A DNA stretch of 64,000 bases. It comes from Antiquaquibacter metalliresistens. GTDB lineage: Bacteria > Actinomycetota > Actinomycetes > Actinomycetales > Microbacteriaceae. Made by a program: the position numbers and the translations under genes. Every line of letters begins with the position of its first letter. Within the stretch, counting starts at the first letter, position 1. The stretch spans positions 186,001-250,000 of the forward strand of contig NZ_JARGEM010000003.1 of the NCBI RefSeq assembly GCF_029211225.1. Direction: 5' to 3'. The notes below the pieces were generated by a model. That model was not told where the DNA came from. It did not search any database and worked only from the letters and a program-made list of their open reading frames with translations. Shown piece after piece: positions 36,953 to 62,279 of this stretch.

Positions 36953-37496
36953 CGTTCAGCCAAGGCCGCAGGGCCCGGGTCACCAGCGGCATGGCCAGAT
37001 AGGTCATCACCGGCGTCACGAGCGCGACCGTCACGAGGATGCGCAACGCCAGCGACCAGGCGCCGGCCAGCGGCAGCAGCGCCCAGTTGGCGAGCAGACT
37101 CAGCGGGTAGAAAACGATGAAGATCGAGACCATCTGCTTCCAACGCGGCGGGGTGGATGCCTCGGGCCCGATCACCTCCACGCTCGTGGGGGTATCGAAC
37201 CAGCCCTCGATGCCGGTGCGGCGCTCTTCGGGACTGTGCTCCACCATCCCGAGCGCGGATGCCACCCACCAGGCCCGCTCGGGCGACGCCTCCCACGCGG
37301 CCAGGGACTCGGCATCCGCGAACCGGAACAGCATGTGCCACTCGGGGCTGTTCGGGTCGGGGCGGATCCACCCGGAGCCGAGGTAGCCGGGGGAGGCGCT
37401 GAGCAGGTCCTGGCCGGCGCGCGCCCACGCCGCGACCTCCTTCGCCCGGGCAGGATCGACGATGCGCGTGATGGAGACGGTGATCGGGGAGCCCAT
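36921..37496 (-). CDS. Antibiotic-biosynthesis-monooxygenase-like domain fused to membrane helices
   Basis: A 191-residue protein. Residues 1-95 form an ABM-type ferredoxin-like domain (ITVSITRIVDPARAKEVAAWARAGQDLLSASPGYLGS, EWHMLFRFADAESLAAWEASPERAWW). Two or three membrane helices follow (VSIFIVFYPLSLLANWALLPL, LRILVTVALVTPVMTYLAMPLV). This fusion resembles a known actinobacterial and proteobacterial type with unknown substrate. Its end overlaps rsfS antisense. It is the last chromosomal gene before the tRNA-Ala insertion site. Confidence 0.83.
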   Translation of the reverse strand: MGSPITVSITRIVDPARAKEVAAWARAGQDLLSASPGYLGSGWIRPDPNSPEWHMLFRFADAESLAAWEASPERAWWVASALGMVEHSPEERRTGIEGWFDTPTSVEVIGPEASTPPRWKQMVSIFIVFYPLSLLANWALLPLAGAWSLALRILVTVALVTPVMTYLAMPLVTRALRPWLNATRRPSRRAG

Positions 37497-39508
37497 GGCT
37501 CCATTGTGCGGTTCGCGCGACGCTTGCCGTGGTGTAATCTTGACAAGTTGATCTTCCCCGGAGGATCACGAGATGGGTCTGTGGCGCAGCTGGTAGCGCA
37601 CCTGCATGGCATGCAGGGGGTCAGGGGTTCGAGTCCCCTCAGATCCACCATAAGAGTCTTACTAGAATCGCCGTCCTGGTAGATGCCAGCGAGGAGCGCA
37701 TCAGTAAGTCCCGATTGATTTGATCCCAAGAGACCGCCCGCGTGGGCGGTCTCTTTTGGTTGTTCCCCTATGTGCCGTGCCAGTTCGGCCTGTGCGCTTG
37801 CCTGTGCCGCAGACAACGGCAGATCGGCGTTGTATGCGGTCCAGCCGCGCTGTGCTGCGAGGAGCTCGCGGAGCGGCTGCTTCACGTCGTCGCCGATGAC
37901 ATCGTCGTTGGCGACGTAGAGGTTGTTGAAGATGGCCTGATTGAGTGAGCGCCGTACGTCGTCGCTTGAGGCGATGTAGAGCGCACGGATGTCGGTCAAG
38001 AGTTCGAGGAAGCCGTCGACGTGGTTGCGTCCGGTGGTGAGGTCTGCGGACACGGCGTTGAGTTGTTCTGTCACTGTTTCGCGTTCGCGGCCGAGCTCTC
38101 GCAGGCGTTCGCGGATGCGTTCGCGCGGGAGTGAAGCGTCGGCTGCGAGATCGAGCAAGTTCTCTTCTTTGGCGCGGAGCACGGACAGGCGGTCTTCAAG
38201 CTGTGTGCGGCGAAGCTGTTCGGCCCGCACTTCGTCGAGAAGGGCCTGTTCGAGCTGATCGCGGACCACCTGAATGAAGTCGGTGCTCAGTTCGACCTGC
38301 TTATAGTGCTCTTCGACCGCCGCTTCGATGTTGTCGAGCTTGGCGAAGGGCGCGTCGCAGGTGCCATCCTGGTTGCCGCGGCAAAAGAAGTACCAGTACT
38401 CATCGCCGTGCCGGTTGACTGTGCGCTGCTGGATGAGGCGTCGGTTGGCGTTCCGCTCCAGTCGGCAGTGCCCGCACCAGAGGCTTCCCTTCAGGTAATG
38501 GGTGTGGACGCGTCGACGTTCGCCGGAGACGGCTCGCGTTTCGAGGATGCCTTGTACGACGTCGAAGAGATCCGGCTGGATCAGCGGGGTGTGACGTCCC
38601 TTGAACACTTCGTCCTTGTATGAGACTTCGCCGATGTAGTAGCGGTCGCGGAGCATCGACTGGATCTTGCTGTCTGACACCGGGCCTGCAGGTCGTCGAG
38701 CTGTGGGGCGGGTGCGCAGCCCACGCTCAGTGAGCTCATCAGCGATGTCCTGGAACGTGTAGGCGTTCGTGGCATAGAGCTCGAAGGCGAGCTTGACGTA
38801 CGGTGCTCGTTCTTCGTCGATGGCGACGGTGTTGACCTTGCGGCCATCGATGTTCTCGGTGACGTTGACGTACCCGAGCGGTGCGCGGCCAAGCGTGCCG
38901 CCGTTCTTGGCCTTCTGCGCCATCTTGTAGGCGATATCCGCGCCGTCTTCCCGGGAGCGGTACTCGTTGAACGCCGCAAGGATGCCGTGCATGAGCTGTC
39001 CGACGGGTGTGGCGTCGATGGACTCGGTCGCGGAGATGAGAGTGACGCCACGCTTCTGGAGGTCGGCCATGACGATGGCATCATCGGTACGGTTTCGCGC
39101 GAAGCGGGAGAGCTTGTACACGATGACGTAGTCGACGTCGCGGTCGCGGCGGATGCGTTCCAGCATCTGCTGGAACGCGACGCGTTTGGTCATCTCGGTA
39201 GCGGAGCGGCCAGGCTCGACATACTCGGCGACGATGGTGAGTCCAAGTTGCTCAGCTTTCCGCTGGCACGACGTGCGCTGAGCGGGGATAGAGATCCCCT
39301 CGGGGTCGTAGTCGGTGTTGACCTGTCCTTTGCTTGAAACGCGCAGGTAGGTCACGGCTCGTGAGCCCGGTGGCGCGTCAGCGCCTTCGAGGATGTTGGG
39401 CGTTCCGTATGTCGTGATCTCGTTCTCGTTGAGCTCAACGACGATTGGCTTCAGCGGTGGCGGCGAGGCGCTGAAAACACCTGATGGGTAGCTGGTTTGA
39501 TTCGACAT
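37172..39508 (-). CDS. Large serine recombinase (element integrase), reading frame continuing through the tRNA
   Basis: The start ATG 39508 follows a strong site (GCAGGAAGGAGCCCC). The N-terminal resolvase domain has TYLRVSSKGQ with the catalytic Ser near residue 41, YKLSRFARNRTDD and GQLMHGILAAFNEYRSR. The recombinase domain (GRAPLGYVNV), zinc ribbon (GSLWCGHCRLERNANRR...YFFCRGNQDGTC) and coiled coil follow. The conserved part ends near residue 570. The open frame then continues through the terminator, the tRNA antisense strand (DLRGLEPLTPC) and into the chromosome, ending at 37172, for 778 codons. The tail was probably acquired on integration; the native stop would lie in the excised form. 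Confidence 0.85.
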   Translation of the reverse strand: MSNQTSYPSGVFSASPPPLKPIVVELNENEITTYGTPNILEGADAPPGSRAVTYLRVSSKGQVNTDYDPEGISIPAQRTSCQRKAEQLGLTIVAEYVEPGRSATEMTKRVAFQQMLERIRRDRDVDYVIVYKLSRFARNRTDDAIVMADLQKRGVTLISATESIDATPVGQLMHGILAAFNEYRSREDGADIAYKMAQKAKNGGTLGRAPLGYVNVTENIDGRKVNTVAIDEERAPYVKLAFELYATNAYTFQDIADELTERGLRTRPTARRPAGPVSDSKIQSMLRDRYYIGEVSYKDEVFKGRHTPLIQPDLFDVVQGILETRAVSGERRRVHTHYLKGSLWCGHCRLERNANRRLIQQRTVNRHGDEYWYFFCRGNQDGTCDAPFAKLDNIEAAVEEHYKQVELSTDFIQVVRDQLEQALLDEVRAEQLRRTQLEDRLSVLRAKEENLLDLAADASLPRERIRERLRELGRERETVTEQLNAVSADLTTGRNHVDGFLELLTDIRALYIASSDDVRRSLNQAIFNNLYVANDDVIGDDVKQPLRELLAAQRGWTAYNADLPLSAAQASAQAELARHIGEQPKETAHAGGLLGSNQSGLTDALLAGIYQDGDSSKTLMVDLRGLEPLTPCMPCRCATSCATDPSRDPPGKINLSRLHHGKRRANRTMEPWAPRSPSPSRASSILPGRRRSRRGRAPARTCSAPPPATSAPGGSAPTRTAPSGTCCSGSRMPSPWPRGRRRPSGPGGWHPRSGWWSTVPKSAAPASRAGSIPPRAWR
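37575..37650 (+). tRNA. tRNA-Ala (GGC)
   Basis: A complete 76-base cloverleaf including an encoded CCA. The acceptor stem GGGTCTG/CAGATCC contains the G3-U70 wobble pair that marks alanine tRNAs. The anticodon stem is CCTGC/GCAGG with loop ATGGCAT, giving anticodon GGC. The T arm is GGGGTTCGAGTCCCC. Its 3' half is the probable attachment site of the element to the right. Confidence 0.97.
37729..37757 (+). terminator. Rho-independent terminator after tRNA-Ala
   Basis: A perfect 12-bp stem AAGAGACCGCCC / GGGCGGTCTCTT with loop CGT is followed by TT. Orientation fits the tRNA transcript. It lies within the 3' part of the recombinase open frame on the other strand. Confidence 0.85.
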
Positions 39509-39668
39509 GGGGCTCCTTCCTGCGGCTGGGTCCTCCGGATTAACGCTCTTCCGGCCCAGGAAGTCCAGTCCTTCGGCGGCTTCCACAGCAGGTTCAGCGC
39601 CACGTATCGGGGGTGCGTGACCGTCGTAATTTCTACCTCGTTCCTCGGTCTGTGACGCGGCCTCCACC

Positions 39669-40493
39669 TCACTTGTTGAATACAAAGGTGCGCCCCTTCC
39701 ATTCGATGAGGTCGTAGCCTTCGCGGACGTGGTCTTCGATGAGGCTGTAGTCGATGAGCACCGCATTGTCGGGCAGCGATCGTGATTCGGTGGCTTCGTA
39801 GATCGCGAGCTCGAGGCTGTCGACTTCTGCCAGGTCGCGCACGGCGTCCTCGAGGAACGGATAGGCGTTGACGTAGCTTTCGTGGAAGCTCTCCATGACG
39901 TCGTCGGCTCCGACGCTGACGTCCGGGAGCATGAGGAATGCCTGCAGCGCTTCGTCCTCGGGTAAGTGGAGGTCGGTGAGCAGTTCGATCAGGCCGTCTT
40001 CATCGCCACTGTCCCAGTCAGCCGGAACGTTGACGGTGAAGTGCTCACTGCCGACACGGACGCTGGTCCGCACGAGCAACTGCTCCAGCTTCGGTTGCAG
40101 GTGTTCGTTCATGAAGCGCCGGCCGCTGCCGGTGTTCTCGCGCTGCACGAGGTAGGTGCCGAGCCAGTCGATCCACTCCTTTACTTCGGCGGGAGTGTCG
40201 GGGTCGCCGTAGAGGTCCAGGTACTCGTCGCGGAGCGTGAGGTACTGCCCCTCACCAGTGCGTCCGAAGTCCGCGAGCGCCGATTCGCGGCCGTACGCCC
40301 GTCCGAGGACGTGGGCGATGCACCGAGCTGTCTCTTGACTGATCTCGCGCCCTTCAGTTTGGGCGGCCGCGATGCCATCGACAATGTACTGCGTGAACCG
40401 GCGAGTGGCCACTTCAAGACGTCGGAAGTCCGGGATCTCACGGTCTGTCGCTGTTCGCGCCTCATGCTGATGCTGTGCTTCGTGTTCGTTCAT
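39669..40493 (-). CDS. Hypothetical island protein
   Basis: A 274-residue acidic protein without membrane segments. Recognisable stretches are RRFTQYIVDGIAAAQTEGREISQETARCIAHVLGRAYG in the N-terminal half and DVMESFHESYVNAYPFLEDAVRDLAEVD plus EDHVREGYDLIEWKGRTFVFNK at the end. ATG 40493 overlaps the stop of the preceding small gene (ATGA). The C-terminal part resembles phage/ICE antirestriction-like partner proteins only loosely, so no function is claimed. Confidence 0.72.
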   Translation of the reverse strand: MNEHEAQHQHEARTATDREIPDFRRLEVATRRFTQYIVDGIAAAQTEGREISQETARCIAHVLGRAYGRESALADFGRTGEGQYLTLRDEYLDLYGDPDTPAEVKEWIDWLGTYLVQRENTGSGRRFMNEHLQPKLEQLLVRTSVRVGSEHFTVNVPADWDSGDEDGLIELLTDLHLPEDEALQAFLMLPDVSVGADDVMESFHESYVNAYPFLEDAVRDLAEVDSLELAIYEATESRSLPDNAVLIDYSLIEDHVREGYDLIEWKGRTFVFNK

Positions 40494-40783
40494 GACCGGC
40501 CTCCTCGCGTGAGGATGTGTCGGCCGAGCGCGTCGATCCATCCTTCTTGTTCGAGAGGAACGCGCAGCTGGTTCAGTTCGTTCAGGCTGTCCTGCCGGTT
40601 GAGGACTCCCGTTGACGCGAAGCGTTCGAGTGCGGTGCCGACGCCGTGGTGCAGGCTGGCCGCGATGAGTCGGGCGAGCGTTTCGGAGCGGGCTTCGGGG
40701 TCCATGGCGAGCCCGATCTCGATGAGCTGCCGAGCCTTGTCGGTCTGGTCCGGCGTCGCCGTGATGATGGTTGATGAGTTCAT
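40490..40783 (-). CDS. Small hypothetical island protein
   Basis: A 97-residue mostly helical protein (TDKARQLIEIGLAMDPEARSETLARLIAASLHHGVGTALERFA). The ATG at 40783 follows an AAAGGAGGATTCTC ribosome site. It is translationally coupled to the next gene by an ATGA overlap. No family is recognised. Confidence 0.72.
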   Translation of the reverse strand: MNSSTIITATPDQTDKARQLIEIGLAMDPEARSETLARLIAASLHHGVGTALERFASTGVLNRQDSLNELNQLRVPLEQEGWIDALGRHILTRGGRS

Positions 40784-40801: not shown

Positions 40802-41623
40802 TTACGGGTGGTGTTTGCTCTCGTAGGGAGCGAGTTGGTCGAGGGCCTGTTCCGCCAGTGCGACCCAGAAGAGTGATGCGTCGAGGGCGCCGTCGGCTGT
40901 GATGGCTGCGCGGATGGCGTCGGCGCGCTTGGTGGTCGGTACGAGCCAGACCACGGCCGGGAACAGCCCGCGGGCGTCCTGCTCGATGCCGGTGGCGAAG
41001 TACTGCTGGTAGAGGCGGCACTTGCGGATCACGACCGGCAGGTGTTCCGTGCCGCAGTCGATCTCGACAAACGAATGCGTCTCGGTCCGAGCGTCGGCTG
41101 TGACCACGGTGAGGTCAGGCTTGAGGGTGATCGCCGTACCGCCCGGTGCAGTGAAGGGTCGCCAGTTGGACGGTTCGGCTGCGAGCTCGAGGAGTTCGAA
41201 GCGGCCGGTATGGGTGCGTTCGCGAAGCAGTACGGCAATGTCTCCGACTGCGAGCGTGTGCGCCATGAAGGTGCGGCCGGGCTCGCTGTAGCGCCTACGT
41301 GCGCTGTCACCGCGTCGGGCGCGTAGGAACCGTTCTCCGGCACCGCCGAGGTGCCAGACGGTGAGCGCGGAGCCGTGCTTGAGTCCGCCGATGCGACGCT
41401 CGAGGCGCGCGACTGCGCCGAGGCCTTCGAGCCGGGTGAGGATGCGGGTGGTTCCTCTGGTGGCGGCGCTGGCGGTCGCGTGATCGCCGAAGGGCTTGGC
41501 CGGGAGATGGAGCCGTTGAATCTGGCGGGTCGTGAGCAGCCGGAACTGCTCGAGGTCTTCGAGAATGCGGATGTCCCGATCGGTGAGGTGCAGCTCCAGG
41601 ACGTGCAGGCGGAGGGCGGTCAT
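40802..41623 (-). CDS. Replication-relaxation family protein
   Basis: A 273-residue protein matching the Replic_Relax family (PF13814). It has an N-terminal winged helix (LTDRDIRILEDLEQFRLLTTRQIQRLHLP...RGTTRILTRLEGLGAVARLERRIGG) and a C-terminal nuclease-like region (FVEIDCGTEHLPVVIRKCRLYQQYFATG). These genes occur on actinobacterial and firmicute plasmids and conjugative elements, next to a conjugation ATPase as here, and are linked to plasmid replication or DNA relaxation. Direct biochemical evidence for the family is limited. Confidence 0.85.
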   Translation of the reverse strand: MTALRLHVLELHLTDRDIRILEDLEQFRLLTTRQIQRLHLPAKPFGDHATASAATRGTTRILTRLEGLGAVARLERRIGGLKHGSALTVWHLGGAGERFLRARRGDSARRRYSEPGRTFMAHTLAVGDIAVLLRERTHTGRFELLELAAEPSNWRPFTAPGGTAITLKPDLTVVTADARTETHSFVEIDCGTEHLPVVIRKCRLYQQYFATGIEQDARGLFPAVVWLVPTTKRADAIRAAITADGALDASLFWVALAEQALDQLAPYESKHHP

Positions 41624-41789: not shown

Positions 41790-43934
41790 TCATGTCGCCC
41801 TCACCTTCTGGTGGCTTCGCCGAGGCTCCGGATCTGAGGTGACGCCCTTCGGCATCGAGAGCTCAGCAGGCTGGATCGGCGGCAATGCGCCATAGCGCTG
41901 TCGGCTGGCTTCACGGATGAGATCGGCGGCACCGCTCTCAGGGGTAGGCGGGAGGATGGCGGCGGAGCACCACTCGGTCGGCGACGCACCTGCCATGAGG
42001 CGTGCGTAGACATGGTGCTTGGGCAGCGTCTCGAAGTCGTCCGCCGTCAGCGAGGGCGCACGCTTGGCCATCGCCTGGGCGTCTTCGGTGTCGAGGGCGA
42101 AGCAGAGCTTGGAGCGCGCGTTGGCATCCAAGCCGCTGCGCAGGCCGTCGGGCAGCTGCTTCCGGTACTGGTGCGCGACGTGCACGCCTACCCCATAGGA
42201 GCGGAACACGCTCATCGCGTTCTCGACGCTCGTGGGCAGATGCAGGTAGTTCTGCACTTCGTCGATGAAGATCATGCCGGGGCGCTTCATCGGCTCCTTC
42301 TCCGCTGCTCGTTCTGTCGCGGCGAGGAACAGTTCAGCGACGATGAGACTGCCGAGGAGTTTGGAGGCGCCTTCCCCGATGAGTGCGTCGTTGAGGGGCA
42401 CGAGGACGGTCTTCTTCTCACGGAAAACGTCGCGGAGCCGGAAGCGAGGCTGGGACTGGCCGAGCACCCGAACCAGCGGCTGGCGCATCACGATCTTGCG
42501 GAGCTTGTTCAAGGGCGAGGCGATGGCGGCGGCACGCTGTCCTGGGCTCATTGCTTCGAAGTCCGCCCAGAACGCTGCCAGCGTCGCATCGTCCTGCACC
42601 GCGGCGACGACGGGGCGGCGGAAGGCGGCATCGGATAGAAGCCGGGGAAGGTCGATTAGGGTGAACGGCTCGGTGCGCTTCTGCCCGGCGCGAGCAAGCG
42701 ACAGTAACGCGCCTTGGACGAGGTATTCCGTGCGCGGCCCCCAGCCCTCGTGGAACACAGCGCCGAGGGCGGAGAGGATGCCGTCGACGACGATGTCGGG
42801 GTCGCGATCACCGACGTCCAGCGGGTTGAATCCGATAGGAGCGTCCTTATCGGTGGCGTCGAGCACGACGATCCGCCCTGCCGCGTCGGTAGGTGCCGTG
42901 GCGAGGATCCGGTCGACCAGCTGCTTCTTCGGCTCGATGACGCAGCAGGCGCGCCCCGCGGCGATGTCGGAGAGAATGAGGTGTTCGAGGAGCGTGGACT
43001 TGCCGGATCCGGTCGGGCCGATCGCGACGAGATGCTGCAGGCGGCTCTGCGGGTCGAGGCCGATGGGACGGTCGGGTCCAGGCGCAGTGCCGAGCGCGAA
43101 GACCGCTTGGGTGCGGGAGACGATCTCTGGCACCGGCAGGAGTCGCGGATGCAGCGGTGGGACACCGGCGTATTGGCGTTCGCCGAGCGGCCAGGCCAGC
43201 AGCGGCACAATCTCGGAGGCGGTGAGGCGGAGTCTTCCACCTCCGCCTGACTGGCCTGCCTTCCAGCGGGGAGCCGTGTCATGGACAAGGGAAAGGCGAA
43301 CGCCAGGGCTCTCGAGCGGTTGCAGTGCACCGAAGACCTCCCAGAGGAGGCCGTGGCGGCGTTTGACGGTCTCGGCGGTGACGCCGATGCGCAGCGTGAC
43401 ATCAAACCGGGCCTGACCGGCGTGGGCGTGGAGGCGTCGCTTGGTGTCGGTCGGTGCCGGGCGGACACCGTCGATGAGCATGGAGCCGAGCGGTTGTAGC
43501 GGGTCGAGCGGGGTTGCTGTGAGCTGCTGCGGACGGTGGGCTCGTCCAAGGATCAACTGCACGCCGACTACCTCCTCGCCCCGCCTTGCCGCCAGCGCCT
43601 GATAGACGCCGCCGACGACCTGCTCCGGGTCAACCTCCGCCAAGGGGAGACCACCGGGCCGGGCCGTGACTCGGCTGACAGCGGCCACGTGCGGGCGCAC
43701 GGCGGGCCCAAAACCGAGGCCGGGTACCAGGCCGCCCAGGAGGCGCTTCAGGCGGTGAACGGCCATTGGTGCGCAACCGAATGCGGCCACCACCCCATCC
43801 GCGCTGGCGGCCATTTCGAAGGCGATCGGGCGCGGCACGTCGCTGCCCGCCAGGCGCGTCAGCAGGACCGTGACGGTCGACGCGTCGATCGGTCGGGGTA
43901 GGTACAGGCGAGTGAAGACGTAGGAATCAGGCAT
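41790..43934 (-). CDS. Type IV secretion / conjugation-type P-loop ATPase
   Basis: A 714-residue ATPase of the VirD4/TraD-HerA class that would pump DNA during conjugal transfer. Walker A is IGPTGSGKSTLLEHL near residue 325. Walker B is MIFIDEVQNYLHLP near 560, followed by the arginine-rich HVAHQYRKQLPDGLRSGLDANARSKLCFAL. The first 280 residues (FTRLYLPRPIDASTVTVLLTRLAG) form a domain found in actinobacterial element ATPases, and no N-terminal membrane helices are seen. ATG 43934 was chosen because PDSYVFTRLYLPRP is the family-like N-terminus; it overlaps the preceding small gene. Confidence 0.85.
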   Translation of the reverse strand: MPDSYVFTRLYLPRPIDASTVTVLLTRLAGSDVPRPIAFEMAASADGVVAAFGCAPMAVHRLKRLLGGLVPGLGFGPAVRPHVAAVSRVTARPGGLPLAEVDPEQVVGGVYQALAARRGEEVVGVQLILGRAHRPQQLTATPLDPLQPLGSMLIDGVRPAPTDTKRRLHAHAGQARFDVTLRIGVTAETVKRRHGLLWEVFGALQPLESPGVRLSLVHDTAPRWKAGQSGGGGRLRLTASEIVPLLAWPLGERQYAGVPPLHPRLLPVPEIVSRTQAVFALGTAPGPDRPIGLDPQSRLQHLVAIGPTGSGKSTLLEHLILSDIAAGRACCVIEPKKQLVDRILATAPTDAAGRIVVLDATDKDAPIGFNPLDVGDRDPDIVVDGILSALGAVFHEGWGPRTEYLVQGALLSLARAGQKRTEPFTLIDLPRLLSDAAFRRPVVAAVQDDATLAAFWADFEAMSPGQRAAAIASPLNKLRKIVMRQPLVRVLGQSQPRFRLRDVFREKKTVLVPLNDALIGEGASKLLGSLIVAELFLAATERAAEKEPMKRPGMIFIDEVQNYLHLPTSVENAMSVFRSYGVGVHVAHQYRKQLPDGLRSGLDANARSKLCFALDTEDAQAMAKRAPSLTADDFETLPKHHVYARLMAGASPTEWCSAAILPPTPESGAADLIREASRQRYGALPPIQPAELSMPKGVTSDPEPRRSHQKVRAT

Positions 43935-44133
43935 CGCCGGCCTCCTTGGTGCTTTCGTGAGCGGCGTCCGCCTGTGCGGCGGCCTCGAGCCGGGCCTGCT
44001 CCAGACCGGCAGTGGTGATGATCTTCGCGACCTGGTCAGGGCGCAGGTCGTGGTTGAGTTCCGAGAACACCCAGACGCGACGTCCGGAGCTCTTGCGATA
44101 GCGGCGACGAGGACCGCGGGCATGACTACTCAT
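43927..44133 (-). CDS. Small basic island protein
   Basis: A 68-residue protein with an Arg/Lys-rich N-terminus (SSHARGPRRRYRKSSGRRVWVF), then DLRPDQVAKIITTAGLEQARLEAAAQADAAHE, a helical end. ATG 44133 follows GGAAGGAGGTTCACGC. Its end overlaps the ATPase start by 8 bases, and it is the first gene after a strong promoter at 44235-44263. It may be a DNA-binding accessory to the transfer ATPase; this is inference from charge and position. Confidence 0.7.
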   Translation of the reverse strand: MSSHARGPRRRYRKSSGRRVWVFSELNHDLRPDQVAKIITTAGLEQARLEAAAQADAAHESTKEAGDA

Positions 44134-44234: not shown

Positions 44235-44296
44235 GTTATGAACTCGAACGGTCGAGTTGTCAAGCGTTTTGAGCGGTCGTTGTCGATTCCGCAACG
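44235..44296 (-). promoter_or_regulatory. Promoter of the ATPase operon with palindrome in the spacer and upstream site
   Basis: On the minus strand: -35 TTGACA (44258-44263) and -10 CATAAC (44235-44240), 17 bases apart. The spacer is almost wholly an inverted repeat AACTCGA-CCGT-TCGAGTT (44241-44258). Upstream is CGTTGCGGAATCGACAACG (44278-44296), itself an inverted repeat CGTTG-N9-CAACG, also found before the MT-A70 promoter. Confidence 0.75.
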
Positions 44297-44326
44297 ACTT
44301 CACAGGGGTGAACGTGCTTGAGCTTT

Positions 44327-44524
44327 TCATCGCTGACCCCACCAGTAGCGGTAGGCTCGGACCGCGGCACACAAGACGAGCGCGAGCACGCTGATCATCA
44401 GAATCCAGCCCCAGAACTGGGCCAGGAGCTCCAGCGCGAGCCAGAGCGCGACGATGCCGCCGAGGATGAGCAGGCAGGCGCGGAAGAAGCGCTGCACGAT
44501 GGTGGGCGGAGTATCGTCGGCCAT
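44327..44524 (-). CDS. Small membrane protein
   Basis: A 65-residue protein with two membrane helices (ACLLILGGIVALWLALELL, GWILMISVLALVLCAAVRAY). ATG 44524 overlaps the MT-A70 methyltransferase stop (ATGA). Function is unknown. The pairing with a DNA/RNA adenine methyltransferase is notable but unexplained. Confidence 0.72.
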   Translation of the reverse strand: MADDTPPTIVQRFFRACLLILGGIVALWLALELLAQFWGWILMISVLALVLCAAVRAYRYWWGQR

Positions 44525-45147
44525 CACACATCCTCGCTTCCTCCGTCGGCCGGCGCGTCCTGGCGGGCGAAGTCGCTGGGCACCGGATAGCCCGGGATCG
44601 AGATGTCCGACTCGATCTCGTTGCCCCACACCGACCAGTCCGCGTGACTGTTCGGGCGTCGACGCGCGAAGAGTTCGAGGTAGGGCCCGTCTAGAACGCG
44701 CTCGATGAGCGGGATCATCTCCTCCGGCTTATGGGAATGATCTTGCACGGGGAACTCGACGACAGATGCCTGCCCATGGAACTCCCATGGTGCTTTGCCG
44801 CGGACGGCGTGCAGGAGCGGCTCGTGCATGTTGCGGAAGTAGTTCCCGAGCCCGAGACGTCGCTTGTTCCAGATGGCTTGGCCGACGTAGCGGAAGCCCC
44901 AGGCCCTGGCGACTTCGAGCGCCTGCGGCCAAGCAGCGTTGGTTGTCCACAGTAGTAGCGTGGCGTCTTCGGCAGCCAGATCCGCGATCGGCATTGCCTT
45001 GATCCGATCAAGCGTCATCAGGTCGTAATAGCGCTGCGCACCCCGCGCTCCCTTCTGGGCGATGTCCCAGGGCGGGTCGGCGTAGATCACTTTGAACTTC
45101 TTCTGCGGAGCGGCCGGTTCGGTCTCGCTCGTCTGGTTGCTGGTCAT
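44524..45147 (-). CDS. MT-A70 family adenine N6-methyltransferase
   Basis: A 207-residue methyltransferase with the catalytic DPPW motif at residues 24-27 (KVIYADPPWDI), followed by DLMTLDRIKAMPIADLAAEDATLLLWTTN. The HKPEEMIPLIERVLDGPYLELFARR segment is typical of phage and element MT-A70 enzymes that methylate adenine in DNA, often to evade restriction. Start ATG 45147 follows GGAGAGAGGAG. It is the first gene of a two-gene operon from the promoter at 45202-45230. Confidence 0.9.
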   Translation of the reverse strand: MTSNQTSETEPAAPQKKFKVIYADPPWDIAQKGARGAQRYYDLMTLDRIKAMPIADLAAEDATLLLWTTNAAWPQALEVARAWGFRYVGQAIWNKRRLGLGNYFRNMHEPLLHAVRGKAPWEFHGQASVVEFPVQDHSHKPEEMIPLIERVLDGPYLELFARRRPNSHADWSVWGNEIESDISIPGYPVPSDFARQDAPADGGSEDV

Positions 45148-45201
45148 ATTTCAGTACTCCTCTCTCCAGCCCGCGCGAAGGGCGGGCAGCGACGATGACT
45201 G

Positions 45202-45264
45202 GTTATGCGCTCCCGGGCGGGAGCCGTCAAGATTCCGTTCGCGTCCGTTGCGAAATCCACAACG
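45202..45264 (-). promoter_or_regulatory. Promoter of the MT-A70 operon with palindrome in the spacer and upstream site
   Basis: On the minus strand: -35 TTGACG (45225-45230) and -10 CATAAC (45202-45207), spacer 17. The spacer is the inverted repeat GCTCCCG-CC-CGGGAGC. The upstream element CGTTGTGGATTTCGCAACG (45246-45264) sits 15 bases before the -35, almost as in the promoter at 44235-44263 (14 bases), with 14 of 19 bases identical. Confidence 0.75.
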
Positions 45265-45331: not shown

Positions 45332-45709
45332 TCACTCGTCTTCGCAGATGGTCAAACGCGTCCCGTGCATGACAAGCACCAGGTGGTGCTTCATGCGGTC
45401 CTCTTCTGAGTCGTTCGCATAAACCGCCCCGGTGACGTAGACGTGCCGGATCGGCGCGGCGTCGAGCATCGCCAGCATGATTCGTAGGCGCTGCTCGGAG
45501 TCGCCAGCGGATGGGCCGACGGCGAAGTGGATGCGGTCTGGTGCGAGGCCATCTCTGTCCATGTACTCCCGCATGATCCGCTCCTGCTCCTTCGCCGATT
45601 GCCCACCGAGTGACTCGGGCGCTACCTGGTGGTCCATGCTCGTGATCCAGAGGATGGCGCCGACCGACGCCGCCTCCCTCTTGCTCGGTGTTGGTGTCTT
45701 GGTGGTCAT
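45332..45709 (-). CDS. Resolvase-domain-like protein without catalytic serine (copy 1)
   Basis: A 125-residue protein. Its order of elements is a first strand (ASVGAILWITSM), an EQERIMREYMDRDGL helix, EQRLRIMLAMLDAAPIRHVYVTGAVYAND, and a final MKHHLVLVMHGTRLTICED. This recalls the N-terminal domain of serine recombinases (YxRVSS / Q...G / L..ML...I..V.V / L...G..L), but the RVS catalytic serine is replaced (WITSM) and no DNA-binding domain follows. The gene at 45818-46210 is a paralogue. The likeness is by eye only; function is unknown. Confidence 0.7.
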   Translation of the reverse strand: MTTKTPTPSKREAASVGAILWITSMDHQVAPESLGGQSAKEQERIMREYMDRDGLAPDRIHFAVGPSAGDSEQRLRIMLAMLDAAPIRHVYVTGAVYANDSEEDRMKHHLVLVMHGTRLTICEDE

Positions 45710-45817: not shown

Positions 45818-46210
45818 TCAGCCGTCGCAAATGATGAGGTCGGTGCCGACGCGTGACAGCTCCGCGCTGAACCGCTCGATCTCTGCGTCCGCGCCGTCAA
45901 TCAAGACCGCGCCGGTCGCGTACAGCCGAGCGATCGGGATCCGGGCAAGGTCGTCGCGCAGGACGCGCAGACGCTGGTCGAGCGTCTCGGAGCCGGGGTC
46001 GAGCCCGTAGAGGACGCTCGTGATCGTGAGGCCATCGGCACGGGCGCGACTTCGCGTCACGCGTTCTTGGTACTCGATGGTGAGCGAGCCGGGCGGATCT
46101 GCGATGAGGCGCCGCTGCGGGCTCTTGAGCCAGACGAGCGCTCCCGCCACGTGAGTGCCCGGGCTGGTGGCGTTGGCGACCATGTCGGTGTGCATGAGTT
46201 CGTCCTTCAT
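45818..46210 (-). CDS. Resolvase-domain-like protein without catalytic serine (copy 2)
   Basis: A 130-residue protein. VAGALVWLKSPQ, YQERVTRSRARADGLTI, DQRLRVLRDDLARIPIARLYATGAVLIDG and ELSRVGTDLIICDG line up one after another with the elements of the protein at 45332-45709. The two are therefore duplicates with low identity. As in the other copy, the first strand lacks the RVS serine of active serine recombinases. ATG 46210 was chosen; a methionine five codons later is also possible. Confidence 0.7.
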   Translation of the reverse strand: MKDELMHTDMVANATSPGTHVAGALVWLKSPQRRLIADPPGSLTIEYQERVTRSRARADGLTITSVLYGLDPGSETLDQRLRVLRDDLARIPIARLYATGAVLIDGADAEIERFSAELSRVGTDLIICDG

Positions 46211-49445: not shown

Positions 49446-49727
49446 CTACGTGGTCGTCAGCCGGGGCTGCCCAGGGAGCACGTCGCCGATCTCGACGTCC
49501 AGCGCCTGACAGATCGCGAGGATCGTGGCCAGCCTCGGGTTCGTCGGCGCTCCGCCGCGCGTGGCAGCTCCGCGCTCGTACTGCTGGTACGAATACAGCG
49601 AGATGCCAGCCAGCTCGACGAGTTCCTCCTGCGTCAGGTTCCTGGCGGCTCGCGCACGCCGCAGATTGTGGCCGAGCGCGGTCGCGAAATCCGCCCAGGC
49701 GGGAACAGAGGCGGGACCGGAAACCAT
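49446..49727 (-). CDS. XRE family helix-turn-helix regulator
   Basis: A 93-residue protein with a lambda-repressor-like domain (LGHNLRRARAARNLTQEELVELAGISLYSYQQYERGAATRGGAPTNPRLATILAICQALDVEIGDVL). ATG 49727 follows GGAGGGG. Upstream in-frame codons run through the operator region and are rejected. Two tandem ACCAAT-N-TTGGT palindromes lie 16 bases before the start, so it probably represses its own gene and perhaps the divergent lipoprotein gene. Confidence 0.86.
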   Translation of the reverse strand: MVSGPASVPAWADFATALGHNLRRARAARNLTQEELVELAGISLYSYQQYERGAATRGGAPTNPRLATILAICQALDVEIGDVLPGQPRLTTT

Positions 49728-49742
49728 CCCCTCCAGCCTCAA

Positions 49743-49778
49743 ACCAATGAGAGTTGGTAGGAACCAATAAGAATTGGT
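49743..49778. promoter_or_regulatory. Tandem operator palindromes between XRE and lipoprotein genes
   Basis: ACCAATGAGAGTTGGT (49743-49758) and ACCAATAAGAATTGGT (49763-49778) share the ACCAAT...TTGGT arms and sit 20 bases apart (two helical turns). The second fills the spacer of a minus-strand promoter candidate with -35 TTGAAC (49781-49786 on the plus strand as GTTCAA). Confidence 0.78.
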
Positions 49779-49832
49779 AAGTTCAAGCTGCTGGCCGACC
49801 GGCCGCACGCGACCCTACTCGAAGGCGGTCCT

Positions 49833-50825: not shown

Positions 50826-50950
50826 TGTTGTGAAAACTACGACGGCCGAACCCTTGAACGGATTGCGCTCATGCTTCATAGTCAGGCGCAGTTGTGGCGC
50901 GAACTTCACTACGCACCACTCCGAATCCCGATCAGGAGCCAGCCCGAGGC
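50826..50950 (-). repeat. Dispersed 125-bp repeat, copy A
   Basis: The reverse complement of this stretch matches 56423-56547 over 125 bases without gaps, about 83% identical by eye. Both begin GCCTCGGGCTGGCTC and share GTGAAGTTCGCGCCA. It fills most of the 305-base gap between the lipoprotein gene and the pilin-like gene; 50655-50825 shows nothing else. Confidence 0.8.
50854..50882 (+). promoter_or_regulatory. Promoter of the pilin-like gene, conserved in the repeat
   Basis: -35 TTGAAC (50854-50859) and -10 CATAGT (50877-50882), spacer 17. In copy B the same positions read TTGAAT and CATAGC (minus strand, 56519-56491), spacer 17. Conservation of both boxes supports a real promoter. Confidence 0.6.
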
Positions 50951-51083
50951 GCAGACTTCGTGTACCCTCGCTCTTCAAGTGTTCTGAGCGAGAACGCTTT
51001 AAGCCTTCGCCGTGGCTTCACCATCGTGGAGCTCCTCATCGGGGTCTGCCCCGAGTCTTGTTGACAGTCGGGGTTTGGGGTGA

Positions 51084-51965
51084 TCAGGCCGCTTTCGCGT
51101 CCGTGTAGATCATCTCAAACTCGATGGGGGTGAGTTTGCGGAGGCCGCGCTGACGGCGCCGACGGTTGTACTTCGTCTCGATCCAGATGACCATCGCGAG
51201 GCGGAGGTCCTCGCGGGTGTCCCAGCGTCTGGTGTTGAGGACGTTCTTTTGGAGCAGGCTGAAGAAGCTCTCCATGCTCGCGTTGTCTCCGGCCCCGTAA
51301 GACCGGCCCATCGACCCGACCAGGCCGTTGTTGCGCAGCAGCCGCTGGGTGCGCTTCGCGCGGAACTGACCGCCTCGGTCGGAGTGGCAGATTGTTTCTG
51401 TCGGTGAGCGCAGTGCGATCGCGTTGCGCATCGCCGCCCGTGCGAGGGATGACTTCATGCGGGTGTCGATGGAGTAGCCGACGATCTTGTTCGACCAGAC
51501 GTCTTTGATCGCGCAGATGTAGAGCTTGCCTTCCCGGGTCGGGTGCTCCGAGATGTCCCACAGCCACACCTTGTTCGGCCCGTCGGCGACGAACTCGTGC
51601 CGGACGACGCCGTGCTCGTCGACGACCGCGAGGAGATCGTCGTGGGGTGCGGGGCCGGTGCTGCCGGGCTTGCTCCGCTTCTTATGGGGCGACGCGTGGA
51701 TCCCCGCGATCCGACACAGCCGGTGCACACGGTTCTCGCCGACGGTGATGCCGTACTCGTCGGACAGTTCGTCGGTGAGGAATCTGTAGCCGAGGGTCGC
51801 GTCGTCGCGGTGAGCCTCGTAGAGGACGTCGATGAGGTGAGCATCGTCCCAGTCCCGCTGGGAGATCGGAGCCTTCAGCCACTTGTAATACCCCTGGGTC
51901 GATAGACCCAGAACCCTGCACGCCACCGCGACCGGCACCCTGATCGGGGCGCCGGCCGCGGCCAT
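51084..51965 (-). CDS. IS3-family transposase OrfB (DDE catalytic part)
   Basis: A 293-residue rve-type integrase core. The DDE residues are visible at Asp 137 (VWLWDISEH), Asp 196 (ICHSDRGGQF) and Glu 232 (NASMESFFSLLQKN). An HTH_21 domain precedes it (GLSTQGYYKWLKAP...DDATLGYRFLTDEL). It is normally made as a fusion with OrfA by -1 frameshifting; the upstream open frame continues in phase to the AAAA run at 51989-51992, giving a K-IVFPLVREM junction. Confidence 0.95.
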   Translation of the reverse strand: MAAAGAPIRVPVAVACRVLGLSTQGYYKWLKAPISQRDWDDAHLIDVLYEAHRDDATLGYRFLTDELSDEYGITVGENRVHRLCRIAGIHASPHKKRSKPGSTGPAPHDDLLAVVDEHGVVRHEFVADGPNKVWLWDISEHPTREGKLYICAIKDVWSNKIVGYSIDTRMKSSLARAAMRNAIALRSPTETICHSDRGGQFRAKRTQRLLRNNGLVGSMGRSYGAGDNASMESFFSLLQKNVLNTRRWDTREDLRLAMVIWIETKYNRRRRQRGLRKLTPIEFEMIYTDAKAA

Positions 51966-51985
51966 CTCACGGACGAGCGGGAAGA

Positions 51986-52273
51986 CTATTTTCCCGGCAG
52001 GTTCGCCTGCGACAGATACGCGGCCGCACGGCGGAGCACCTCGTTCTCCTGCTCGAGCAGACGTATGCGCTTCTTCGCCTCGCGCAGGTCGGCCTGGTCG
52101 GCTCCGGTGAGTCCGGGACGGCGTCCGTCCTCGATGTCTGCTTGCTTCATCCAGTTCGACAAGGACCCTTCGGAGACACCGAAGTCCTTCGCAATCTGCG
52201 ACAGCGGCGCCTGGCCCTGCCGGGCCACCGCCACGATGTCGTCTCGGAACTCCTTGGGATACGGCTTTGCCAC
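51986..52273 (-). CDS. IS3-family transposase OrfA (DNA-binding part)
   Basis: A 95-residue HTH_Tnp_1 protein (YPKEFRDDIVAVARQGQAPLSQIAKDFGVSEGSLSNWMKQADIEDG) ending in a leucine-zipper-like helix (AKKRIRLLEQENEVLRRAAAYL). The GTG start at 52273 follows GGAAGGATGTCCCT; an ATG 11 codons upstream is possible. The end GGAAAATAG provides the slip site for the OrfAB fusion. Confidence 0.93.
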   Translation of the reverse strand: MAKPYPKEFRDDIVAVARQGQAPLSQIAKDFGVSEGSLSNWMKQADIEDGRRPGLTGADQADLREAKKRIRLLEQENEVLRRAAAYLSQANLPGK

Positions 52274-53835
52274 AGGGACATCCTTCCAGCGAGGACGAAT
52301 CCTCACAGATCAGATGTCAACCAAACTCGGGGCAGACCCTCGTGATCGTCGTGATCGCGATTCTTGCAGCTGTCACGATCGTCGCCTACAACGGAATCTC
52401 CAAGAGAGCGAAGGCTTCCACCGCCCAGTCTGCGGCGCAACAGATTGCAAAGAAGATTGCAACGTACGCAATTACGAACGGTGAGGACTACCCGTCTGAC
52501 CTTGCGACGATCGGCGTGACCGACGACGGTTCGACGAGCTATCAGTACAGCGTCAACAACAGCGCCAGTCCACGCACCTACTGCGTCACCGTCAGCGTCT
52601 CGGATATCTCATACTTCATCTCGAGTACTCAGCAGTCTCCAACGGAGGGTGGTTGCCCCGGCCACGGGCAGGGCGGTGTCGCCTCGATAACCAACCTCGC
52701 GGTGAACCCGAGCTTCGAAGCTGGGTCCAGCACGATTGAAGTACGGCGCAATCTCACTCGCTACCCCAACGCCGAGATGGGCACCACCGCAGGTTGGGGC
52801 CCCTCAGCAGGCAGCACGATCTCTTCAGTGTCGGAACTCGCGCACTCTGGGACGCGTTCATACAAGGTCGTGACACCCGGCGTCGCGACAAGCGAAGGGA
52901 TATCTCAGGCGGGATCCGCCGCAATGGGGCCGGCGTCTTCGGGCGTGGCGACAGCGGAAACTTTGTCCGTCTGGGTACATGCTCCAGCGGGCGCCACCTT
53001 GTATTCGCTGCCGAGGAGTATGTGCCGGATGGCGCCTTCGTTGCCACGCGTGGGACGGTGAACTTTACCGGCACGGGCGGATGGCAGCGCGTCTCGGTCG
53101 GAGGTACCAAGGCGACAGCCACGAACATCCTGCGTAGTTACGTCCGAACGCGATCGACAGCTCAGGCGATCACCTTCTACGTTGATGATGCGCTCAATGA
53201 AAACGCCCCGGCGCTTAGTGACTACTTCGACGGCTCGATATCTCCCGACCCCGACCTCACTGCAGCTTGGACTGGCGCGGCGAATCAGAGCGAGTCAGTG
53301 CTCAGCGCCCAGAAGCCATCGGATTTCACATCGGGAAGCGCCACCAACTTGATGTACTTCCAGTCCTCGAGCTGGAAGAGCACCGGTGCGAACAGCGTCC
53401 GCTTGCGGTCGGCCTACACGGCCACAGATCCCGGGTCGTTCATTTCAGTCAACAACCTCAACGCTCAGCTCGTTACCGGTCGCACCTATACGGCGGTTGC
53501 GAAAGTCCGGCTGGAAGCGCCGCTATCCGGCGCGCTCCGAAGCGAAAGACTCCGACTGCAGATACGAACGACGGGCGGTGCAGTCGCCGCGGACTCGAAC
53601 ACGCCTCCAAATGAAGCAGGGGAATATGAGGTGCGCGTCACCTGGACACATAACGGCAACAGTTCGCTTCGCCTGTATCACGGAGGAGTACAAGGTTCGG
53701 GCGACGTCTGGTTCGATGATCTCATGGTCGTCGAGGGCACCTACACCGGCCCAGCCCGCAATGGCGACAGTCCGAACTGGATCTGGAATGGCACGCCTCA
53801 TGCATCGACATCGACGGGGCCTGGCCAGTAGCGGA

Positions 53836-54384
53836 TCAGGAGGCGCGTAGCGCATCTTTCAGTTGGGCCATCACTCGTTCGACGTTCTCACGCTTGTCGT
53901 ATGGTCCTGGCATTCGAAATACTTGCGCACCCCACGAGGTGCGCTTTGCTTGCATCCCCGGCGCGCCCTCGCTGCCGAGAAGCGCCTTCACCGGGTGCCG
54001 GAAAACGCAGATGACGAGTCCGATCGCGTGGGACTTTAGTTTCTCGAGAAGCGACTCTGATCCGTGGGCGATCTCCGCCTTGGTCACGCCGTCCTCGCCT
54101 TTGGTGGGGCGCTTCACGATGTCGGTGAAGCCGACGCCTGCTTCGACGGCTGCGTCCTCGAAGTACCGCCCGCGAGGCAGTGCGAAGAGGCCAGCACTCG
54201 CAAGGCGCCGTAGCTGTCCTTGACCAGCCTTGCCTTGGTAGTAGTGACCGACGTCGACGCTGGTCTGTGCGGGATTCAGGCCGACGATCATGGCGCGCGG
54301 ACGCTCAGGCCAGATGTCCGCGAGGGTCAGGATCTCTTCTCCCATCCACGTGGTGCGTTCCTGATACCCGTGGAGATCGCTCAA
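53836..54384 (-). CDS. Mug/uracil-DNA glycosylase superfamily protein
   Basis: A 182-residue protein with the glycosylase active-site motif GLNPAQTSVDVGHYY near residues 35-49 (Mug-type GxNPG loop variant with Ala for Gly), VGFTDIVKRPTKG, and VICVFRHPVKALLG at the second motif. Mug enzymes remove uracil or ethenocytosine from mismatches. The Ala in place of Gly in the first motif and the element setting leave the exact lesion uncertain. Its ATG overlaps the stop of the next gene upstream in the transcript (ATGA overlap near 54381). Confidence 0.8.
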   Translation of the reverse strand: MSDLHGYQERTTWMGEEILTLADIWPERPRAMIVGLNPAQTSVDVGHYYQGKAGQGQLRRLASAGLFALPRGRYFEDAAVEAGVGFTDIVKRPTKGEDGVTKAEIAHGSESLLEKLKSHAIGLVICVFRHPVKALLGSEGAPGMQAKRTSWGAQVFRMPGPYDKRENVERVMAQLKDALRAS

Positions 54385-56422: not shown

Positions 56423-56547
56423 GCCTCGGGCTGGCTCTTGATCGAGATTCGGATTGGTGCGTGGTGAAGTTCGCGCCATAACTGTGCCTGGCTATGAACC
56501 ATGAACGCGAAGCATTCAAGGCCTGAGCCGCCGTAGTTTTTACAACG
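56423..56547 (+). repeat. Dispersed 125-bp repeat, copy B
   Basis: This copy matches the reverse complement of 50826-50950 without gaps at about 83%. Read on the minus strand it carries TTGAAT (56519-56514) and CATAGC (56496-56491) 17 bases apart, as in copy A. The minus-strand gene at 56306 lies downstream. Confidence 0.8.
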
Positions 56548-56562
56548 ATCACGACCGGAAGA

Positions 56563-56590
56563 TTGACACTCGGAACCATCGGTTCATACT
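56563..56590 (+). promoter_or_regulatory. Promoter of the ribbon-helix-helix gene with GAACC/GGTTC operator in the spacer
   Basis: -35 TTGACA (56563-56568) and -10 CATACT (56585-56590), spacer 16. The spacer contains the inverted repeat GAACC-ATC-GGTTC (56573-56585). A similar GAACC-GGAT-GGTTC lies at 57122-57135 before the next operon. Confidence 0.72.
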
Positions 56591-56668: not shown

Positions 56669-56986
56669 ATGAGTGAGAACAACCCCGCCGAGACGCCCTC
56701 CACGGCGCTCGGCCCGATTCGCACCCTTGCGGTGCGGCTCACCGACGGACTGCGGGCGCAGCTGGATGTCATCGCCCAGCTCAACGACCGCTCCGTCACC
56801 GAAGAGATTCGTATCGCCCTCGAGGCCTGGGTCGAGACCAGCAAGTCCGACCCCAAGGTGCTCGCCAGGGCGGAGACGGTGCGTGCCGAGATCGAGCGCG
56901 AGGCCAAGACCAAGCAGAGCGCGATCGAGGCGATCTTCGGCGGCACCGGAGCGAAGGCTCCGCGTGCCAAGTCGGGCTCCGCCTGA
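56669..56986 (+). CDS. Ribbon-helix-helix (CopG/Arc-like) protein
   Basis: A 105-residue protein. RTLAVRLTDGLRAQLDVIAQLNDRSVTEEIRIALEAWVE is a ribbon-helix-helix fold with the beta strand TLAVRL. The C-terminal half is a charged coiled helix (AETVRAEIEREAKTKQSAIEAIF). ATG 56669 follows GAGGAGGCTCACC. It probably regulates its own promoter and that of the DUF3846-like pair through GAACC/GGTTC sites, or acts in element partition; both are inferences. Confidence 0.82.
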   Translation: MSENNPAETPSTALGPIRTLAVRLTDGLRAQLDVIAQLNDRSVTEEIRIALEAWVETSKSDPKVLARAETVRAEIEREAKTKQSAIEAIFGGTGAKAPRAKSGSA

Positions 56987-61074: not shown

Positions 61075-62279
61075 GCGCTACGGCTGACGCCCCGAGGTGG
61101 CGCGACACGGCGCTGCTCGAATTAGTGACGATCAAGAGTGGTCAGGTCGATCCTCGAGCGTCTCCTTATCGAGACTTGCCACTGATTGCGCCGGATCACA
61201 TCGCCACCGGAACTGGCCGACTCGTCAAGAAGGAGTCTGCATCGACGCAGGGCGCTATCAGCGGCAAGTACTTCGTGCGACCCGGTGACGTCATTTATAG
61301 CAAGATTCGTCCATACCTGCAGAAGGCATACAGGTGTGACTTTGAAGCCCTCTGTAGCGCGGATATGTACCCGCTCACGCCTCGTGGCGACGTGGACTCC
61401 TCCTTCATCCTGCACTCGCTCCTCGGGCATGACTTCACCAACTTCGCCGTCAGTGTTTCTGCGAGAAGCGGCATTCCCAAGATCAATCGCGAGGAACTCG
61501 CCGAGTATCGGATGCGTACCCCCGGGGGTGCTGAACAGCGCGCGATCGGAAAGGCGCTCGACGACGCCGACAACCTGATTGCCGCGCTGGAACGCCTCAT
61601 CGTCAAGAAGCAGGCGATCAAGCAGGGCATGATGCAGCAGCTCCTCACGGGTACCACTCGCCTCCCCGGCTTCACCGCATCCTGGCGCCAGGCCACCATC
61701 GGTGACCTGGCAAGCGTGTCAGGTGGCGGTACACCGTCCACCCGCGACTCCAGTCTGTGGGGCGGTGGGATTCCATGGTTTACTCCGGCAGAGATCCCTG
61801 AGTCCGGTGCAGGAGTCGTCACGACGTCCGATCGCACAATTACCAAGGCTGGACTCCAGAAGAGCGCCGCAAAGATGCTTCCCGAGGGCACTGTGCTGGT
61901 GACTTCGCGTGCCAGCATTGGCCACTGCGCGATCGCAGGCCGTCCAGTGGCAACGAACCAGGGATTTACATCGCTCGTTCCGAGCGACCGGCGATCGACC
62001 GAGTTTCTCTACTACTGGGTCCAGCAGCATAGATCTCGATTCGTCTCTCGCGCCGCAGGAAGCACCTTTCTGGAGATCAGCGGTTCCAAGGTAGCAACGA
62101 TCGAGATTTTGGCACCTGCCGCCGATGAGCAAGCAGCGATCGGCGCGGTACTTTCGGATGCTGACGCTGACCTTCGGGGCCTGCAGCTGCGCCTAACGAA
62201 GGCGCGGAACGTCAAGCAAGGCATGATGCAGCAACTCCTAACCGGCCGCACCCGCTTGCCTGTGGAGGCTGCGGTATGA
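61071..62279 (+). CDS. hsdS: Type I restriction-modification specificity subunit HsdS
   Basis: A 402-residue specificity protein with two target-recognition domains. TRD1 (residues about 10-170) ends in the conserved helix with GMMQQLLTGTTRLPGF. TRD2 (about 200-360, GDLASVSGGGTPSTRDSSLWGGGIPWFTPAEI) ends in GMMQQLLTGRTRLPVE. The two central/distal repeats set the spacing between the half sites, so the recognised sequence should be bipartite. The GTG start overlaps hsdM and the stop overlaps the next gene. Confidence 0.95.
   Translation: MSATADAPRWRDTALLELVTIKSGQVDPRASPYRDLPLIAPDHIATGTGRLVKKESASTQGAISGKYFVRPGDVIYSKIRPYLQKAYRCDFEALCSADMYPLTPRGDVDSSFILHSLLGHDFTNFAVSVSARSGIPKINREELAEYRMRTPGGAEQRAIGKALDDADNLIAALERLIVKKQAIKQGMMQQLLTGTTRLPGFTASWRQATIGDLASVSGGGTPSTRDSSLWGGGIPWFTPAEIPESGAGVVTTSDRTITKAGLQKSAAKMLPEGTVLVTSRASIGHCAIAGRPVATNQGFTSLVPSDRRSTEFLYYWVQQHRSRFVSRAAGSTFLEISGSKVATIEILAPAADEQAAIGAVLSDADADLRGLQLRLTKARNVKQGMMQQLLTGRTRLPVEAAV

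Follow-up and report, generated by a model that had tools for sequence, protein, structure and literature searches.

The 64-kb stretch of DNA analysed here (the window) carries a mobile island in which one palindromic element recurs upstream of several promoters. The presence of a common site at several promoters, and its being kept in place in related islands, suggests joint control by one island-encoded regulator. We propose, with somewhat more confidence than doubt, that the element is an operator of the island, bound by the island's own ribbon-helix-helix-like (RHH-like) protein, which would activate its own genes along with the operons of the MT-A70 methyltransferase and the transfer ATPase. 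The operator itself is well supported by sequence comparison; the RHH-like protein as its binder, and activation as the sign of control, are both what we infer.

Operator copies and promoter architecture

A protein family scan, covering part of the open reading frames, found in the island a serine recombinase (37172-39766), a Replic_Relax protein (40802-41623) and, on the minus strand, a VirD4/TraG-like transfer ATPase (41790-44123; Pfam T4SS-DNA_transf, E = 7.8e-6). No VirB4-like protein and no relaxase were recognised among the proteins scanned. The ATPase coordinates are those of the longest open reading frame, whose true start is probably internal, because its 5' end overlaps the gene for a small basic protein of 68 aa (43927-44133, minus strand). 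A search of plasmid DNA gave no match, and a plasmid tblastn search with the ATPase returned 94 records, none covering 80%. An Rfam search of 40-50 kb gave a single match, to a miRNA family, far below threshold. A uracil-DNA glycosylase superfamily protein (53836-54384; Pfam UDG, E = 1.1e-8) is 70% identical to that of the related island L064, and on the right side lie the type I restriction-modification genes HsdM and HsdS (58612-62279), with HsdM homologues near MT-A70 in two related loci (L025 and L077).

Operator copy 1, CGTTGCGGAATCGACAACG (44278-44296, minus strand), lies upstream of the promoter of the 68-aa gene, the first gene past it, and of the transfer ATPase (44235-44263, minus strand; TTGACA at 44258-44263, N17, CATAAC at 44235-44240). 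Operator copy 2, CGTTGTGGATTTCGCAACG (45246-45264, minus strand), lies upstream of the MT-A70 operon promoter (45202-45230, minus strand; TTGACG at 45225-45230, N17, CATAAC at 45202-45207). Behind it come the MT-A70 family DNA methyltransferase (44524-45147, minus strand; Pfam MT-A70, E = 8.1e-24) and, as the next gene, a small hydrophobic protein of 65 aa that is conserved in relatives (44327-44524, minus strand). A preliminary description of this DNA had reported the two elements as CGTTG-N9-CAACG repeats with 14 of 19 positions identical, standing 14 and 15 bases before the -35 boxes. It was accurate on each point: both repeats are present on the minus strand, the identity holds in the promoter-facing orientation, and the gaps from the 19-mer are 14 nt (to TTGACA) and 15 nt (to TTGACG). 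Once one of the two is inverted, they are identical at 17 of 19 positions. The 17-mer GTTG..CAAC was used as the working form of the site, with gaps of 15 and 16 nt. Two palindromes between the -35 and -10 boxes, CTCGA-N4-TCGAG (44243-44256) and GCTCCC-N4-GGGAGC (45209-45224), were set aside as the real operators, since inspection by eye showed no conservation of either in related islands. Directly upstream of the ATPase operator, CACCYCTGT (44302-44310) is exact in five of nine islands and close in others.

A third, weak copy, GCCGTAGTTTTTACAAC (56530-56546, plus strand), has six of the eight arm bases with the promoter-proximal arm intact, and stands 16 nt before the -35 box of the promoter (56563-56590, plus strand; TTGACA, N16, CATACT) of the RHH-like gene, which encodes 105 aa (56669-56986, plus strand). 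This copy is degenerate, its matrix score (11.0) being below those at 35001 and 50308, neither of which is at such a promoter; by score alone it is not outstanding, and the case for it rests on orthology and position. The orthologous promoter in L064 and L087 carries all eight arm bases with a 5-nt gap, and in most other relatives the proximal half of the site is kept while the distal half is variable. Across 12 genomes, the RHH-like promoters have eight arm bases in two, seven in five and six in five. CAAC is found 5-21 nt before a TTGA-N16-CATA at the RHH-like gene in 12 of the 13 genomes having the gene, a pattern that also matches 10 other places (reversed control, 15). As in an autoregulated element, the site, or at least its proximal arm, is located both at the promoter of the proposed regulator and at the target operons.

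A possible fourth copy, also weak, GTCGTAGTTTTCACAAC (50827-50843, minus strand), lies 10 nt before a rightward TTGAAC-N17-CATAGT (50854-50882), and operator copy 3 is held in common with a divergent promoter-like sequence, TTGAAT-N17-CATAGC (56491-56519, minus strand). Sites located 10 nt from such divergent TTGAA-type sequences of prepilin-like genes may or may not be functional; the regulon possibly extends to these genes. The gene at 50854-53061 has a type IV prepilin-like start (GFTIVELLI) and is apparently broken by an IS3-type insertion (51084-52306), which the related frames of L064 and L076 do not have. Adjoining the weak operator copies, at 56480-56546 and 50827-50893, is a repeated block some 45 bp long (CTATGAAsCATGAnCGCnA..TTCAAGG); it occurs in L064, L071 and L076 as well and holds a divergent TTGAA-N17-CATAG-like promoter sequence. 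Two related proteins of no known family are encoded at 45332-45709 and 45818-46210. Their homologues in L066 and L068 have an operator-linked promoter-like sequence of their own, and none was seen ahead of the two genes in the window.

With the MT-A70 protein as query, 25 related loci were found, about half of them from Microbacteriaceae (genus placement in part provisional) and the remainder from other Actinobacteria, Streptococcus, Clostridia and Saccharibacteria. All TTGANN-N16-18-CATANN sequences were listed, blind to the site, in 30 stretches (438,055 bases, with small overlaps) comprising the window, island loci around MT-A70 and its sites, and loci picked by the RHH-like protein. Among the 46 distinct matches, 26 had seven or more of the eight arm bases upstream, where 300 rounds of dinucleotide shuffling gave a mean of 1.4 and a maximum of 8, and all eight were present in 17 (shuffle mean 0.08, maximum 1), counts that are not independent trials, as the islands share descent. 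With weak copies counted (full CAAC, at least two of the four GTTG bases, gap of 5, 15 or 16 nt), the number was 28 of 46, compared with a shuffle mean of 0.29 and a maximum of 3. In the 64 kb of the window itself the promoter pattern occurs five times, each time with six or more arm bases at 10, 15 or 16 nt.

The distance from the 17-mer to the -35 box was 16 nt at twelve of the 26 promoters, 5 nt at six, 15 nt at five, and 10, 13 and 21 nt at one each. At 23 of the 26, then, the dyad is located upstream of the -35 box at the helically phased distances of 5, 15 or 16 nt, as in class I-type arrangements, and the two gap classes are 10-11 bp, or one helical turn, apart. In the reverse test, in which no -10 box was demanded, TTGA stands at 5, 15 or 16 nt from 17 of the 27 distinct full-arm GTTG-N9-CAAC 17-mers of these stretches, and CATA follows at N16 or N17 in all 17. 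The other ten are not placed at a TTGA-CATA promoter, good ones among them being in L069, L071 and L072, with two more in L074 and L077.

Where a site is linked to a promoter, the whole dyad falls upstream of the -35 box, near -60 or -50 by our count. The -35 boxes are good (TTGAC), and the -10 boxes (CATAAC, CATAAA, CATACT or CATAAT) lack the first T and mostly the last T too, a weakness partly built into a scan that requires CATA. An upstream dyad with a good -35 and a poor -10 looks like an activator-dependent promoter, and of the two roles named in the preliminary description, activator or co-repressor site, its position and phasing favour that of an activator. In our model, a dimer, or a pair of dimers, of the RHH-like protein would bind the imperfect dyad GTTGYGG(A/T)(A/T)TnnnCAAC some 50 or 60 bp ahead of the point where transcription starts, and would assist RNA polymerase where a good -35 (TTGAC) is combined with a poor -10 (CATAAC). 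A single regulator, probably an autoregulated activator, would in this way switch on its own genes as well as the operons of MT-A70 and the transfer ATPase.

The same protein on the same operator could instead be a repressor, hindering RNA polymerase from -50/-60 or bridging distant sites and so keeping the island silent. We regard this as unlikely, if the most serious of the alternatives. Many RHH plasmid regulators are autorepressors, the -35 boxes are good, and two sites about 1 kb apart flank MT-A70 in several islands, all of which would suit repression. However, a dyad wholly upstream of -35 leaves the core promoter uncovered, the -10 boxes are poor, and the gap shifts by a helical turn, as expected for polymerase contact.

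Candidate regulators

The RHH-like protein fits best among the candidate regulators, judging from its distribution. Whole-genome searches of 16 genomes (the window's own, G217 and 14 relatives) found relatives of its gene, at 48-95% protein identity, in 12 of the 15 other genomes. The gene was not found in G777, G780 and G782, and the stretches read from these three hold no promoter-linked site above six of eight arm bases. Conversely, 12 of the 13 gene-bearing genomes have a promoter-linked site with at least seven arm bases, the exception being G783, whose protein is 48% identical. This co-occurrence gives a Fisher p of 0.007 with kinship ignored. In G770 and G774 the RHH-like gene and MT-A70 are on separate contigs. 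The RHH-like protein is also more conserved than both the ATPase and MT-A70 in nine of 12 relatives (95% compared with 44% and 50%, respectively, in L064), and less conserved than MT-A70 in G772, G775 and G783.

Its assignment to the RHH fold is weak. The Pfam matches to RHH_1 (E = 0.027, 14.9 bits, cut-off 20.5) and FitA-like (E = 0.0065, 16.9 bits, cut-off 27) are below cut-off, as is the match to the NCBIfam TprA model NF052309 (E = 0.0086, 16.5 bits, cut-off 150), and a second, unrelated NCBIfam family scores about as high as TprA. An AlphaFold monomer of modest confidence (pLDDT 69.8, pTM 0.36) has helices at 20-38, 43-58 and 62-93 and no strand, whereas the RHH fold has a short strand at the N terminus and two helices after it. 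Foldseek with this model listed nine entries, several of them RHH proteins and including Arc, AmrZ, ORF56 and ParD-type proteins, none of them significant.

Binding of the same kind of operator by another island protein appeared to us a little less probable than repression by the RHH-like protein. Two further binders named in the preliminary description turned out to be poor candidates, as they do not track the site. The protein encoded at 47515 has a relative in one of the 15 other genomes (G776, inside the island; 26% identity over residues 8-136 of 346). The XRE protein (49446-49808) has relatives reaching E = 0.001 in 11 of the 15, weak ones with at most 43% identity, of which two are near island genes (G773:C55 and G770:C72), and none was found in G775 and G776, both of which bear sites. 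The proteins encoded at 39669-40496 and 40490-40783 are also conserved across islands with a similar co-occurrence, but match no DNA-binding family above cut-off. Serine recombinase genes have good 17-mers next to them, within them or some 2 kb ahead of them in L074 (13768-13784), L077 (7047-7063, within the recombinase reading frame) and L069 (18506-18522), with no recognisable TTGA-CATA promoter at any of the three. Those of L074 and L077 are in genomes without the RHH-like gene, and these two sites are the strongest facts against the RHH-like protein as the sole binder.

Such promoter-less copies would also be expected if the element were a DNA-processing site, for a relaxosome accessory protein, partition or a transfer origin, that lies near promoters by happenstance. 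PcfF and the pLS20 auxiliary proteins are described as RHH proteins acting in relaxosomes. Nonetheless, the gap to the -35 box is fixed at several different promoters and no relaxase was recognised among the scanned proteins, and we consider this explanation improbable. The RHH-like protein as an activator remains the reading that we prefer.

Distribution of the site in islands and host genomes

The promoter-facing sites of related islands mostly match the imperfect dyad given above. Besides the window, seven islands (L064, L066, L067, L069, L071, L075 and L078) carry all eight arm bases at the ATPase promoter, and one further island carries seven of eight. For the MT-A70 promoter, the window is joined by six islands with all eight (L009, L066, L067, L068, L078 and L080). 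No good site was seen at the ATPase promoters of L068 (G772) and L072 (G776), and no ATPase promoter of the TTGA-CATA kind was found in L080 (G781). The MT-A70 promoters of G773, G775, G776, G778 and G779 have no site next to them; the first three of these genomes have a good 17-mer in reverse orientation, 94-107 bp ahead of the -35 box of MT-A70. Absence of the motif from homologous promoters had been named beforehand as grounds for abandoning the idea of a shared site; the site is kept in close relatives, though not in all. The proposed tie between the MT-A70 and ATPase operons is supported, and the regulon is larger than had been claimed, as it takes in the RHH-like gene.

In two streptococcal loci (L014 and L016), full GTTG-N9-CAAC arms with a different core lie about 200 and 160 nt before MT-A70, with no adjoining TTGAC promoter. 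Of the 25 loci, the window counted, 13 have a half-site like TTTCnACAAC ahead of MT-A70, compared with 1.8 in shuffles (maximum 7), which is a lead only, the pattern having been picked after looking and its positions being scattered. Relatives from Streptococcus and Clostridia also show ACCTCTGTT ahead of MT-A70.

In our preferred reading the 19-mer belongs to the mobile island and not to the host. The pattern GTTGYGGAWTNNNCAAC was found at 14 places in 10 of the 14 relatives' genomes, all within about 10 kb of an MT-A70 gene, and its reversed control at none in the same 14 genomes. Followed by TTGAC, it occurs in one of 396 genomes of the order, the window's own. A looser pattern matched six of 398 genomes of the family (reversed control, 8), the islands among them being those of the window and G217; the other four were judged from their sequences to be chance. 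A host regulon site borrowed by the island, for which one could cite the presence of the bare palindrome in the host genome, as often as chance predicts, is very improbable against this confinement to islands. Scanning IMG/VR for the site with TTGAC gave 33 stretches of viral contigs. None of them had [CT]A[TC]A where a -10 box would lie, and in none was the RHH-like protein found at E = 0.01; because both were absent from all 33 we took these matches to be unrelated.

The palindrome alone is not evidence, because its whole-genome count equals expectation. Exact CGTTG-N9-CAACG occurs only twice in the window against 0.08 expected (first-order Markov), and four times in the whole 3.07-Mb genome against 3.8 expected; with up to two mismatches the window shows no excess (27 observed, 41 expected). 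The bare palindrome is unremarkable genome-wide, and promoter context is what counts. What raises the 19-mer above chance is its placement at two similar promoters together with its conservation in related islands; by these comparisons it is no chance repeat. A chance likeness of the two palindromes, to which the genome-wide count would give room, is refuted by conservation at orthologous promoters and by the shuffle tests, and its probability is negligible.

Implications and comparison with known systems

Tentatively, and with more doubt than belief, we suggest a wider picture in which an RHH-type activator, of which we found no description among the papers listed, would by itself switch on methylation, DNA transfer and its own production in a family of actinobacterial islands. 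From island to island, the distance from dyad to -35 would be able to shift by one helical turn with the regulon kept, and the sites upstream of MT-A70 in streptococcal relatives would hint that this control predates the split of Actinobacteria and Firmicutes. The analysis supplies a group of actinobacterial mobile islands with a candidate master regulator and with an operator that can be read in the sequence, makes transfer control testable with one protein, two probes and one reporter, and provides a natural set of promoters with the same operator at two helically related distances. Among the literature matches listed, we recognised no paper describing this operator or RHH family.

In class I activation of the CRP type, a dyad lies upstream of the -35 box, at about -60, on a preferred helical face. 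The island dyad is likewise upstream of -35 on a preferred face, but its sites include a further class, near -50, that sits about one turn closer to the promoter. AmrZ (3qoq) is the only PDB sequence match of the RHH-like protein, and not a significant one (E = 0.5); superposed on the model it covers 34 columns at 0.8 Å rmsd (E = 8.6). It is an RHH regulator solved with an 18-bp site, similar in length to the island site, whereas its PDB name makes it a regulator of alginate and motility. MobC of RA3 is described as an auxiliary protein of transfer whose own operon is under its control (PMC4175270). MobC is tied to mobilisation, whereas the role proposed for the RHH-like protein is in transcription.

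A further likeness is to TprA of the ICE PAPI-1 of Pseudomonas aeruginosa, an element-encoded RHH regulator, the role proposed here for the RHH-like protein. TprA is described as a major activator of island genes and acts with NdpA2 against MvaT, and a figure legend puts its site at -254 to -287 (PMC8565334). The island sites, in contrast, are at about -50 or -60, and by sequence the RHH-like protein does not fall within the TprA family. TprA directly activates the pil2 conjugation operon according to the same paper (PMC8565334), and an RHH activator serving a mobile element therefore has precedent.
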